From positions 1 to 63,078 of the forward strand of contig CACPKO010000004.1 of NCBI GenBank assembly GCA_902634555.1: DNA of 63,078 nucleotides, read 5' to 3'. Origin of the DNA: Actinomycetota bacterium. GTDB lineage: Bacteria; Actinomycetota; Acidimicrobiia; Acidimicrobiales; MedAcidi-G1. The translations under genes were made by a program, and so were the position numbers. Under the pieces are notes generated by a model, which was not told the DNA's origin, ran no database searches, and worked only from the letters and a program-made list of their open reading frames with translations. Shown here in pieces: positions 12,534 through 19,033 of this stretch. How positions within the stretch are numbered: position 1 is the first letter of the stretch; each line of letters opens with the position of its first letter.

Positions 12534-14985
12534 AAGTAGTTGGGGATTCCAATTAGACCGGTTTCAGACTGAGGCCATTTCCGCGGTAAATGCTGGCCAT
12601 TCCGTGCTTGTGGCAGCTCCTACTTCTAGTGGGAAAACGGTTGTAGCAGAACATGCTATTGATGTGGCTTTAGAGGGTGGGCTTCGAGCCTTTTACACAA
12701 CACCGATAAAAGCTCTTTCAAATCAGAAATTTTCAGAACTGAAGAAAAGAGTTGGAGCGGAGCGAGTGGGACTCTTAACCGGGGACCTAACGATAAACCC
12801 GATGGCTCCAGTGCTTGTCATGACAACAGAAGTTCTGAGAAACATGCTTTATACGAATTCTGCGACATTAGATGGACTTGCGTGGGTGGTATTAGACGAA
12901 GTCCACTATTTAGAGGACCCATATAGAGGGCCGGTGTGGGAAGAAGTAATTCTTGGACTACCGAAAACAACTCAAGTTATAGCTCTTTCCGCAACGGTTT
13001 CTAACGTAAAAGAGCTAGGAGAGTGGTTATCAAGGGTCAAAGAGAAAACGGAAATTGTCGTCCATGAAAAACGACCAGTTCCTTTGAAACTTCATTATTG
13101 CGCAGCAAGTAGATCAAATCACAAGAGACGGTTAGAGCAGATTCCACTTCTAATAGAGGGAAAGAGTAATCCGGCTGGAAAAAAATTCTCATATGGTGGA
13201 CGGAAGCGGAGAGACGCACATTATCAGAAGAGATTTAGTTCGCCACATTACATTGAGGTGGTTGAATCCCTTAAAAGGCAAGAACTTTTGCCAACTATTC
13301 ATTTCATATTTAGCAGAGCAGGATGCGATGCTGCTCGGGATCGTGTACTTAAAACCGGGGTTTCTCTTAATAATTCCAACGAACAGAAGGCAGTCGATGA
13401 GATTGTTTTACAGCGCTTGAAATTCAAAGATCCCGAAGACATGAAAGTCCTTAAAGTGGATGAGTGGGCCACTGGTTTGCGCAGAGGGATAGCTTCACAT
13501 CACGCAGGCCATATACCTATTTTCAAGGAAATCACCGAAGAACTTTTCGTTAAAGGCCTACTAAAGGTTGTGTATGCAACCGAGACTCTTGCTCTTGGAG
13601 TGAATTTGCCTGCGAGATCAGTGGTTCTAGACAAGATGACCAAGTTCACTGGAGAGAATCATGAGTTTTTGACCTCGAGTCAGTTCACTCAGATAACTGG
13701 AAGGGCTGGACGCCGTGGATTAGACAAGGAAGGTCACGGAATCATCCTGTGGTCACCATTCGTCGAATTTAGAGAAGTAGCTGAACTGGCTCTAAATAAA
13801 AGTTTCTATTTGAAATCTGCATTTCATCCGACCTATAACATGGTTGCAAACCTCATGAATACGAGGTCACAACTAGAAGCTGAAGATTTATTGAAACGAT
13901 CTTTTGGCCAGTTTCAACTTGACAATAAAAGAAATAGGCATGAAAAAAAATTCCAAGAGACCAAGGTTCAAGTCACCCTTTTAGAGGAAGATTTAACAGA
14001 TCTCACAAGGGAAAATTTTGAAACGTCCAAAGTTTCTGCTCTTCAACCCGGAGACATTGTTTTACTCGAAGATGGACAAATTCATGCAATCCTTACCATT
14101 GCCGATCGAAGCGGGAACCGGAGAAGAATAAAGACAATAAATCAAATGGGTAAATTCTCTCGTTTCGCAAGCGAAGGAATATTGAATGCCCCTTTGCGTT
14201 TATCGAAAGTAGAAACTCTGGATCATGCACATCTAAGGGACTCTGAAACGCATCGTGAGATGGTTGCCTTCTTAAGGGAACTATTTACTTTGGAAATCAA
14301 AAAAATTGGTCAAATTCGGAGGAAGATATTCAAACTTAAAAAACAAATTCATGATTCAGAACTTGATACCCCAAAGATTAATCTTGTTGATCAACTAGCA
14401 GTTACAGGAAGAATTCTTGAGTTGAGAGGCTTATCAGAGGGGTGGAGGCTCACAGAGGCAGGCCAACTACTAACACGCATCTACAGTGAGTGTGATTTAG
14501 TCATCGTTGAAGCTTTAAAAGATGAAATATTTGAAGGCCTGAATGCGGCCGAACTGGCTGCAGTTGTCTCAGTATTTGTTTATAGCCACCGAGGCCGACC
14601 AGATGATTTCACGCCACTTAAGAACAAGAGAGTTGGAGAAAGGATCCAAGCAATTGAGAAAATTGCTAAAATGATAACTGATCTTGAGTGGGAACTCGGA
14701 ATGGATTCAAAAGCTGTTCTTGACTCAAGGTACGCTGAGAAAATTTATTCATGGGCATCTGGACAAGATTTAAGCGCAGTATTAGATTCGGCAACTAGTG
14801 GTGGCGAATTTGTAAGAAACGTTCGCTTAGTAAGTGACCTATTGCGGCAGATAAGAACCATAGGCAATGTTGAGTTACAGAAAGTCGCGGCAGAATCTAT
14901 TAAGGCCCTTGAAAGGGGAGTGGTGGTGGTAACTGCAGCTTTCGAAGACGTCGAAGAGGACTTAGAGGCAGCGAAATGGGTATAA
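12526..14985 (+). CDS. helY: Ski2-like DEVH-box RNA helicase (HelY type)
   Basis: An 819-residue superfamily 2 helicase. Walker A is APTSSGKT (31-38), motif II is DEVH (124-127), SATVSN is motif III, and QITGRAGRRG (389-398) is motif VI. After the two RecA domains comes the winged-helix and helical region, with a beta-barrel insert near 500-560. In Mycobacterium helY follows tatC in the same order. The family unwinds RNA 3'-to-5' and is thought to act in RNA turnover, like yeast Ski2/Mtr4. GTG start, 8-base overlap with tatC. Confidence 0.93.
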   Translation: MSESSWGFQLDRFQTEAISAVNAGHSVLVAAPTSSGKTVVAEHAIDVALEGGLRAFYTTPIKALSNQKFSELKKRVGAERVGLLTGDLTINPMAPVLVMTTEVLRNMLYTNSATLDGLAWVVLDEVHYLEDPYRGPVWEEVILGLPKTTQVIALSATVSNVKELGEWLSRVKEKTEIVVHEKRPVPLKLHYCAASRSNHKRRLEQIPLLIEGKSNPAGKKFSYGGRKRRDAHYQKRFSSPHYIEVVESLKRQELLPTIHFIFSRAGCDAARDRVLKTGVSLNNSNEQKAVDEIVLQRLKFKDPEDMKVLKVDEWATGLRRGIASHHAGHIPIFKEITEELFVKGLLKVVYATETLALGVNLPARSVVLDKMTKFTGENHEFLTSSQFTQITGRAGRRGLDKEGHGIILWSPFVEFREVAELALNKSFYLKSAFHPTYNMVANLMNTRSQLEAEDLLKRSFGQFQLDNKRNRHEKKFQETKVQVTLLEEDLTDLTRENFETSKVSALQPGDIVLLEDGQIHAILTIADRSGNRRRIKTINQMGKFSRFASEGILNAPLRLSKVETLDHAHLRDSETHREMVAFLRELFTLEIKKIGQIRRKIFKLKKQIHDSELDTPKINLVDQLAVTGRILELRGLSEGWRLTEAGQLLTRIYSECDLVIVEALKDEIFEGLNAAELAAVVSVFVYSHRGRPDDFTPLKNKRVGERIQAIEKIAKMITDLEWELGMDSKAVLDSRYAEKIYSWASGQDLSAVLDSATSGGEFVRNVRLVSDLLRQIRTIGNVELQKVAAESIKALERGVVVVTAAFEDVEEDLEAAKWV

Positions 14986-15587
14986 CTCCAAGAGAGGAAT
15001 GGGGAGAACCTGGAGTCATGCCTTCAGGTGGTCTAATTGTAAATGGAAATGAAGAACTCCAAGAAATAATAGAGAGTTGTCGTAGGTCTAATAACGAAAT
15101 ACCGACCATAGGTTTAGCGGGAGGTGACCTTTGGAGAACATTGGGGGGCAAAAGTCATCACGAACGATTAATGAAGGGGGGTGCCCAACTCTTTTCAGTG
15201 GACCTTGGGTCTGCCCTTGTTGATGGGCATATTTATTGGTTCGCTTCCCATTTGATTGCTCGTAGAAGAATCTGGATGGGACGCACTTGGATAGTCGCTA
15301 ATGCTTCTCATTACGGAAATTGGAACATAGCGCCACGTGCTCATCCGGGTGATGGGCTTCTAGACATCCTCGATTCAAATCTTGGGTTTTCTGATCGTTT
15401 AAAAGCCAGATCTCGCGTGCAGGCCGGAAGTCATGTTCCTCACCCCGATATTCATTATCAGAGGCGTTCCACTGCGCAAATTGAACTAAAAAAGGAAACA
15501 GATGTTTGGATTGACGGAAAGAGGATAATGAAGGCAAGTCAAATTTCTGTTCGAATAGAGCCCGACGCTCTCCGAGTGATGCTGTAG
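14976..15587 (+). CDS. Diacylglycerol/lipid-kinase-like protein with eroded nucleotide site
   Basis: 203 residues; the usual DagK/YegS length is about 300. The C-terminal lipid-kinase domain is clear: NASHYGNWNIAPRAHPGDG (109-127), then VQAGSHVPHPDIHYQRR and a DVWIDG strand. The N-terminal catalytic domain is short. Where GGDGT is expected there is NGNEE (23-27), and the GTGND loop reads GGD (49-51) before LWRTLGG. The protein has therefore probably lost kinase activity and may bind or sense lipid. ATG start with AGGCAG upstream; it overlaps helY by 10 bases. The family assignment is by eye. Confidence 0.65.
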   Translation: MGITPREEWGEPGVMPSGGLIVNGNEELQEIIESCRRSNNEIPTIGLAGGDLWRTLGGKSHHERLMKGGAQLFSVDLGSALVDGHIYWFASHLIARRRIWMGRTWIVANASHYGNWNIAPRAHPGDGLLDILDSNLGFSDRLKARSRVQAGSHVPHPDIHYQRRSTAQIELKKETDVWIDGKRIMKASQISVRIEPDALRVML

Positions 15588-16833: not shown

Positions 16834-18450
16834 GTGACCACTTATATTGCTGAAGAATTTACCCCGTTTGAAGAAGAGATTCTTCGGAGGTATTTTACAA
16901 ATCTAGACCAGCCCGTCTTTGCATTAGTGAATTTACCAGAGGTGGTAAAAGGTGCTCTTTTTGCCCGTTACTCAAGATCTCCATTAAGTCTCCGTAGATT
17001 GTTTTTAGATGAGTTTGTTGGAGAGCTTGATATCTCTGGCGATGAAACCATTGATGCAACGGTTGGTTTACGACGGGCAGAAGAATTATATGATCGCGTT
17101 TTCTTTGAATACGGAGATGACAGTGTTGCTCAACTAGGTGGAGTGCATTTAGCTTGCGAGCAGTCCTCAAACGTGCTGACCAAAATCCTTGAGTGGGGGC
17201 GGTTGATGGCTTATTTGGAACAGTCAACTCGTTATATCGCTTACGACGATCGCCCGGGAGGTCGGTTTAGGTATTACCGAGATCCTGAAGTTTTATCTTC
17301 AGCACTTGGCGCACGCTACATAGCTGACCTTGACCGTCAATTTGAAGTTTATTCTGACTTGGTAATCAAGATGAAAGACTTTTATCGAGAGGCTATTCCT
17401 CAGGCACCTGGTGACTCTGACTTCATATATCGTCAGGCTATCTCAGCGAAAGCTTTTGACTCAGTTCGCGGAATCCTTCCTTCTGCTTCACTATCTAATG
17501 TGGGAATATATGGAACCGGACAAGCCTACGAAGCAATGCTTATTCGTATGAGAGCACATCCGTTGCCCGAAGCTAGAGACTATGCAGAGCTAATACTGAG
17601 AGAGTTACGGAAAGTCATCCCATCTTTCTTGACTAGAGTAGATCTCCCGGATCGTGGAGAAGAAATAGGGGCGCATCAAGCAGACAGTAGAGAACGTCTT
17701 GAAGAACTAGGAGAACACTTCTTTCCTGACAATCTCCCCATCGAGAGTGCCCCATTAGTTGATTTAACAGATTTTGATCCTGATGCTGAAGTGAAATTGG
17801 TGGCGTCTGCGCTTTACCCATACACGCATCATTCCGACAGAGCTGTTGAGGACCGCGTTCGCCAAATGACAGTTGAGGAGCGCATTCGGGTGCTTCAAGC
17901 CTTGACCGGAGAGAGAAGTAATCGTCGGCAAAGGCCCGGAAGGGCTTTAGAGCGTCCTGCTTATCGGTTTGATGTTCTCTCTGATTATGGGGCATTTAGG
18001 GACTTGCAACGCCATCGAATGCTGACAATAGATTGGCAGAAATTGAGTACCACACATGGGTATGTTCGTCCTCCAGATGTGGACACTGCGGGCTACTCCA
18101 GTGAATTTGATTCAGTTATGGAGCGTTCAGACGGCCTCTACAAAGCTATGAACGAGGTGTTCCCAGAGCAGTCCTCTTATGCGGTTTCGCTAGCGTACCG
18201 AGTGCGATACATGATGCATATGAATGCTCGTGAAGCGATGCATCTTTTGGAACTGCGTACCAGTCCTCAGGGGCACCCTGCATACAGAGAAGTGGGGCAA
18301 CAAATGCATCACCTCATTTCTGATGTTGCGGGACATCGAGCTATCGCTGAAATGATGAAGTTTGTTGATCATTCGTCTGAACGTGATTTAGAGCGTCTAG
18401 AGTCTGAGCGGCGTGCTGAGCAACGACGGAACGAACGGTCAAGTGATTGA
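16834..18450 (+). CDS. Tandem-domain ThyX-like protein (FAD-dependent thymidylate synthase family)
   Basis: 538 residues, about twice a normal ThyX (about 220-250), with two ThyX-like cores. The N-terminal core (about 90-270) has EWGRLMAYLEQSTRY (120-134), which aligns with the family motif RHR-x7-S-x-RY but has WGR in place of RHR. The C-terminal core (about 360-520) has a true RHR at 393-395, but the following part reads MLTIDWQKLS and lacks the E-x-S-x-R-Y half. Each repeat ends with a ThyX-type helix (NAREAMHLLELR in the second). ThyX makes dTMP from dUMP with methylene-THF and FAD. Whether this protein does so is uncertain. Confidence 0.75.
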   Translation: MTTYIAEEFTPFEEEILRRYFTNLDQPVFALVNLPEVVKGALFARYSRSPLSLRRLFLDEFVGELDISGDETIDATVGLRRAEELYDRVFFEYGDDSVAQLGGVHLACEQSSNVLTKILEWGRLMAYLEQSTRYIAYDDRPGGRFRYYRDPEVLSSALGARYIADLDRQFEVYSDLVIKMKDFYREAIPQAPGDSDFIYRQAISAKAFDSVRGILPSASLSNVGIYGTGQAYEAMLIRMRAHPLPEARDYAELILRELRKVIPSFLTRVDLPDRGEEIGAHQADSRERLEELGEHFFPDNLPIESAPLVDLTDFDPDAEVKLVASALYPYTHHSDRAVEDRVRQMTVEERIRVLQALTGERSNRRQRPGRALERPAYRFDVLSDYGAFRDLQRHRMLTIDWQKLSTTHGYVRPPDVDTAGYSSEFDSVMERSDGLYKAMNEVFPEQSSYAVSLAYRVRYMMHMNAREAMHLLELRTSPQGHPAYREVGQQMHHLISDVAGHRAIAEMMKFVDHSSERDLERLESERRAEQRRNERSSD

Positions 18451-18568: not shown

Positions 18569-19033
18569 ATGAGTGAAGAAGAAATAGAAGAAGAGGTCGC
18601 GATGGATCTTGAAGATGGAGATGATGAAGGCTTTGAGGAGCCAGATTCAGAACTTGAAGAAGGATTTGAAGGAAATCTTGACGACGACGACGAAGAAGAC
18701 ACAGAAGAAGACGAAGAAGAAGAAGAAGAAGAGAGCGGGCCGCGCCCATCTCGTCATAGTGGCGATGAAGGTGAAGAAGATGAACCAGATCCAGATGATG
18801 TAGAGGCTGATCTTGAAGAAATTCTACGCGACCGAATAGCCGCTGATGAAGATGAAGATGAAGATGGCGAAGAGGAAGAGGACTCGAGTCAAGTAGAAGT
18901 AGTGGCAAAGTCCCCTGAAGAGGCTCAAGCCCGTCAAAAAACTGAGATGTCATGCCCTCATTGTTTTCTTTTAGTGGACGAGTCGGTTGTTTCTGAGACG
19001 GGTGAATGCTCACACTGTGGAGCACCCATCTAA
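18569..19033 (+). CDS. Highly acidic protein with C-terminal zinc ribbon (DUF4193-like)
   Basis: 154 residues. Residues 1-110 are very rich in Asp and Glu, with runs of up to about ten acids and DED repeats. A more ordered stretch DDVEADLEEILRDRIAA (77-92) interrupts them. The end is a four-cysteine ribbon, C129-x2-C132 and C147-x2-C150 (CPHCFLLV ... CSHCG). The CxxCFLxx motif resembles actinobacterial DUF4193 proteins, whose role is unknown. Likely cytoplasmic; a nucleic-acid mimic or a partner of RNA polymerase are open possibilities. It has its own good promoter, and the next gene starts 11 bases after its stop. Confidence 0.8.
   Translation: MSEEEIEEEVAMDLEDGDDEGFEEPDSELEEGFEGNLDDDDEEDTEEDEEEEEEESGPRPSRHSGDEGEEDEPDPDDVEADLEEILRDRIAADEDEDEDGEEEEDSSQVEVVAKSPEEAQARQKTEMSCPHCFLLVDESVVSETGECSHCGAPI

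Follow-up and report, generated by a model that had tools for sequence, protein, structure and literature searches.

A tandem ThyX protein of the Acidimicrobiia with its active-site motif split between two repeats, a probable flavin-dependent thymidylate synthase

The window analysed here, a stretch of 63,078 nucleotides, encodes a protein made of two ThyX repeats in tandem, between which the residues of the flavin-dependent thymidylate synthase site are divided. Comparison with relatives makes it quite probable that this protein is an active split-site flavin-dependent thymidylate synthase, which would derive from one in-frame duplication with reciprocal loss of half-sites and would, as a dimer of fused chains, carry two live and two vestigial sites. 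The split arrangement is a distinct ThyX variant: it fails both the cut-off of the NCBIfam ThyX equivalog TIGR02170 (40.1 against 87.9 bits) and the test for the full motif on a single chain. The features are collected in Table 1.

Table 1. Coordinates in the window of the tandem ThyX gene, its repeats and the residues of the divided site (Tm, T. maritima numbering).
Feature	Position	Strand	Remark
Tandem ThyX (split-site flavin-dependent thymidylate synthase, predicted), 538 aa	16834..18450	+	
N-terminal ThyX repeat, aa 20-285	16891..17688	+	profile-profile comparison with canonical ThyX, global alignment probability 99.1; second hit over Pfam Thy1 cut-off
C-terminal ThyX repeat, aa 305-515	17746..18378	+	global profile alignment probability 99.3; model Z 16.9 against T. 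thermophilus and T. maritima ThyX
G94-D-D-S97 (Tm G52-H53-E54-T55)	17113..17124	+	S97 invariant; His position is Asp in bacterial clade
W121-G-R123, degenerate RHR position of N-repeat	17194..17202	+	
E129-Q-S131-T-R133-Y134, kept dUMP loop (Tm E86, S88, R90, Y91)	17218..17235	+	invariant, 77 sequences
R212 (Tm R147)	17467..17469	+	invariant
R393-H-R395, kept FAD/dUMP motif (Tm R78-H79-R80)	18010..18018	+	R393, R395 invariant; H394 in 76/77
K403, motif-Ser register position in C-repeat	18040..18042	+	not conserved
L474-R475 (Tm L173-R174; Arg contacts dUMP)	18253..18258	+	invariant

The ThyX-like fusion noticed in the original prediction was borne out by Pfam: two stretches of the protein match Thy1 (PF02511) in tandem, with 112.5 bits against a gathering cut-off of 24.8, and in a Thy1 search of the genome the two repeats were scored separately, each above the cut-off. 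The reading frame starts with GTG, a start supported by homologues that align from residue 1 on. Among named relatives, the nearest come from metagenome assemblies of marine Acidimicrobiales (97% and 96% identity), and identity ranges from 67 to 97% across the class Acidimicrobiia (80 closest matches). A sequence search of the PDB with the protein or its profile (A1) found no ThyX, whereas fold and profile comparison did. The label 'FAD-dependent thymidylate synthase' borne by the protein in the public record is probably correct.

The fold was predicted by AlphaFold2 on a diverse alignment (pLDDT 88.9, pTM 0.88). An earlier run on close relatives only had given a pLDDT of 72.5 with a poor N-half, so that the deeper alignment improved the model. 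In the fold search the C-repeat matched solved ThyX structures; the N-repeat was not separately listed and was placed by its profile. Foldseek on the whole chain retrieved the predicted thymidylate synthase of the Microcystis phage Ma-LMM01 (TMq 0.58) and a 461-aa phage protein (TMq 0.63, TMt 0.73).

Canonical ThyX carries RHR-x7-S-x-RY in one piece. The residues first reported for the N-repeat, with E-x-S-x-R-Y kept and W-G-R in place of RHR, were verified as quoted. Counting the register back from S131 puts W121-G122-R123 at the place of RHR, and counting forward from R393 puts Lys 403 at the place of the Ser. For the C-repeat, the retention of RHR and the absence of S-x-RY were likewise found; the replacement of Ser by Lys, on which the same prediction had remarked, is not meaningful, because close relatives have K, Q, R or P in this column, and we rejected any message in K403. 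Further ThyX-site positions were located in both halves: the N-half also has G-[D/H]-x-S (residues 94-97) and R212, and the C-half has R475. We take T. maritima H53, E58, R147 and N169 to be positions of the ThyX site. Tandem proteins of the bacterial clade all have Asp at the position corresponding to H53 (residue 95), and the viral and Bacillus-type sequences have His there in 26/26 cases (alignment A4). Structures of a T. maritima H53D variant are present in the PDB (4KAR, 4KAS).

Conservation was evaluated on a tandem set of 185 distinct proteins from Acidimicrobiia, other actinobacterial classes, Euzebya, Miltoncostaea, Parabacteroides, plasmids of Bacillus and Paenibacillus, and phages, the latter comprising jumbo phages, Tunturi_5, BONAISHI, Yong, Ma-LMM01, a Microcoleus phage and many viral contigs. 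An alignment-free scan found E-x-S-x-R-[Y/F], followed about 180-340 residues on by R-[H/Q]-(N)-R, in all 185. The complete RHR-x7-S-x-RY on one segment was found in none of them, against 14/14 single-domain ThyX. An alignment of 77 sequences, with identities to the window protein down to 18%, contains twelve invariant columns, eight in the N-half (S47, R48, S97, E129, S131, R133, Y134, R212) and four in the C-half (R393, R395, L474, R475). Nine of the twelve correspond to listed ThyX-site positions, six in the N-half (Tm T55, which is Ser71 in M. tuberculosis, E86, S88, R90, Y91, R147) and three in the C-half (R78, R80, R174), and all of these are present when the protein is taken whole. In nearly every case the counterpart of an invariant site position drifts freely in the opposite half. 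The identical residue set is kept in a group of five phage proteins, of which the first shares 24-28% identity with the four others. Chance or decay of the motif was rejected on the strength of the 185/185 count and of the invariant columns.

The tree was built from 39 N-halves, 39 C-halves and 18 single ThyX. The N-halves form one clade (SH-aLRT 100) and the C-halves another (95), and their internal order is largely mirrored; the tree comes from a quick inference, and its C-half branches are long. Such separate and largely mirror-image clades fit a single duplication and fusion that preceded dispersal among these bacteria and phages. That the split arose independently in phages and in bacteria is not favoured, each half forming a single clade. 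The division of labour proposed from the window alone is thus supported by the tree, together with the complementary conservation in very divergent relatives.

Published work on ThyX assigns the parts of the site to different subunits. In the M. tuberculosis enzyme, FAD is held by the RHR of subunit A together with Ser71 and Arg190 of subunit B, and dUMP is bound by Arg95 and Arg199 of A and by Arg87, Ser105 and Arg107 of C, from which Tyr108 also comes as a lid (PMC6514825). In PBCV-1 ThyX, Ser88 and Arg182 are contributed by different monomers (PMC3498832). In these assignments S-x-RY belongs to a different subunit from RHR and the catalytic Arg, so the half-motifs of the tandem protein can meet in one site. 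Mapped on the published tetramer, the C-half would fit the FAD-binding role of subunit A, and the N-half the dUMP-loop role of C with part of the third role, that of B. The four-lobed ThyX tetramer would then be reconstituted from two fused chains. In each live site a C-repeat, presumably holding FAD, would contribute RHR and the catalytic Arg R475, and an N-repeat would contribute E-x-S-x-R-Y with R212. Two complete sites would be formed per dimer, and the two role-swapped positions, lacking the key residues, would be vestigial. The enzyme is expected to use FAD, NADPH and methylene-THF to convert dUMP to dTMP and to release THF, so that DHFR would not be needed.

The supplier of the B role is probably the other N-repeat, an assignment that points to S97 and, in most viral relatives, to an Arg at Tm R165, although we are unsure of the supplying half. 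The position of this Arg is occupied by Arg in the N-half of 21/26 viral and Bacillus-type sequences, and is not conserved in their C-half. The bacterial clade has Gln in the N-half and Arg in the C-half (R466, within N-A-R), where H470 is also kept. Since the H53 position is Asp and the R165 position Gln, the B role is weakly retained in the bacterial N-half. These residues lend some weight to a variant in which the partner C-repeat plays the B role, each site being built of two C-repeats and one N-repeat and the enzyme being otherwise unchanged. We regard this variant as possible but doubtful, as the equivalent of M. tuberculosis Ser71, S97, is invariant in the N-half, and as the viral and Bacillus-type sequences keep their Arg there and not in the C-half. 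Assignment of the B role to the other N-repeat is therefore preferred.

The contribution of the tandem protein to dTMP synthesis was evaluated in 60 Acidimicrobiia genomes, the window's own and 59 at least 90% complete. Tandem ThyX is encoded by 47/60 (in one case cut at a contig end), single ThyX by 8/60, and 5/60 have no ThyX; ThyA is present in all five of the latter. ThyA or another ThyX is absent from 45 of the 47 tandem genomes. One of the two others (G009) carries an interrupted thyA and DHFR on a 7.2-kb contig (C39, locus L131), which is probably a phage or a contaminant, and the other (G057) a divergent PF00303 protein (52.4 bits) alongside tandem ThyX. DHFR was found in the five ThyA genomes without ThyX, in G009 and as one weak match in G016. 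Confined in this way, DHFR goes together with ThyA (PF00303 against DHFR, Fisher p 9.6e-7, counting G009 and the weak G057 as positive and with kinship uncorrected). The pattern recurs within one family (f15), where a single genome (G059) has tandem ThyX and neither thyA nor DHFR, and three others have thyA and DHFR and no ThyX. These data show that, in this sample, tandem ThyX takes the place of ThyA and, as is the case for canonical ThyX, does without DHFR. A second, contig-edge copy of the tandem-ThyX N-half, 79% identical to the window protein, was seen in one genome (G020, C131, locus L129).

A normal thyX or thyA elsewhere, which the original prediction had named, together with failed complementation, as evidence against itself, was found neither in the genome of the window (72.65% complete), where the search returned no ThyA and no second Thy1 protein, nor in nearly all complete relatives. 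The window genome encodes a thymidine kinase, which speaks against the synthase reading; in its favour, 26 tandem genomes have neither a PF00303 protein nor a thymidine kinase of the PF00265 type. By genome comparison, tandem ThyX behaves as a sole thymidylate synthase with which DHFR is dispensable, and it appears to be the only dTMP maker in most of the Acidimicrobiia.

This pattern also bears on a new activity on a nucleotide substrate, which had been raised at the outset. The protein would then be a ThyX-like flavoenzyme, for instance a uracil methylase like PolB of Streptomyces cacaoi, and dTMP would be made elsewhere. Atypical ThyX folds do exist in the PDB, namely PolB and a C. glutamicum ThyX whose entry is titled as not required for thymidylate, and the shortfall at the NCBIfam equivalog cut-off points the same way. 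We nevertheless judge this very unlikely: the residues kept are dUMP and FAD contacts, and the 45 tandem genomes without ThyA or other ThyX, together with the ThyA and DHFR pattern, leave no alternative dTMP maker, which disfavours the proposal for the bacterial members. Four actinobacterial frames of 302-451 aa (L239, L240, L241 and L242, in G101, G092, G068 and G120) gave a weak ThyX match and matched neither tandem half; they are possibly atypical ThyX.

The neighbourhood of the gene was compared across the class. In most class loci there are matches to the tandem ThyX gene and to most of the genes around it, which include tatC and genes for a DSHCT helicase, a YegS-C protein, an M20 peptidase and a GNAT protein (scored as presence within the stretch retrieved, in any order). 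This pattern suggests a core gene passed on by vertical inheritance. An inactive pseudo-enzyme or degrading duplication, to which the lack of a full ThyX motif on either repeat alone might lead, is exceedingly improbable given this conserved neighbourhood, the identity of 67-97% through the class, the site residues kept even in the most divergent aligned relatives, and the lack of an alternative synthase. An active thymidylate synthase is thus retained as the preferred reading. In phage Tunturi_5 the tandem gene adjoins those for a dUTPase and a dCMP deaminase, and in Euzebya a dCTP deaminase is encoded nearby. Directly downstream of the window gene, 18569-19033 (+) encodes a very acidic 154-aa protein with a C-terminal CPHC...CSHC zinc-ribbon-like motif and no Pfam match, matched in 57/117 related loci. 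The YegS-C domain protein (203 aa, 14976-15587, +) is one in which Pfam found no kinase catalytic domain. Two Bacillus-type tandem genes (L205:3956-6433 and L207:3821-6511) carry intein-like inserts of about 300 aa within the G-H-S/S motif of the N-repeat, with C at the start and G-N ahead of the next Ser.

The tandem protein resembles T. maritima TM0449 and M. tuberculosis ThyX in the fold of its C-repeat, in the FAD, dUMP and catalytic-Arg residues when summed over both halves, and in the lineage pattern in which ThyA is replaced and DHFR is missing. It differs from canonical ThyX in that two repeats are fused and the motif never falls on one of them, and it would have two types of site instead of four equal ones. 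The tandem layout, the split and a whole-length structural match are shared with the thymidylate synthase of Ma-LMM01 (491 aa, phrog_36506) and its phage relatives; these differ from the window protein by the His kept in GHxS and are about 20% identical to it. PolB, a UMP/dUMP methylase, and the C. glutamicum ThyX have the ThyX fold in common, and their solved chains are single-domain; to our knowledge, split repeats have never been described for either. In the open literature, subscription journals being outside the scope, we found no account of a tandem or split ThyX layout, Ma-LMM01 included. A further reading, that the family is an ancient separate class of thymidylate synthase in bacteria and several phage groups, obligately asymmetric with exactly two composite sites, and that the vacated sites are reused, for example for regulation or a second ligand, seems unlikely to us.

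Canonical ThyX has four identical sites, each built by three subunits, and the contribution of one subunit is hard to mutate alone. The tandem ThyX seems to fix this division, the FAD and RHR residues lying on one repeat and the dUMP loop on its partner. A single mutation would then probe one role only, and it becomes possible to test how many sites per oligomer are live. The tandem enzyme would explain the supply of dTMP in most Acidimicrobiia, which are without ThyA or DHFR, and it offers a clear case of a symmetric enzyme turned asymmetric through fusion and reciprocal loss.
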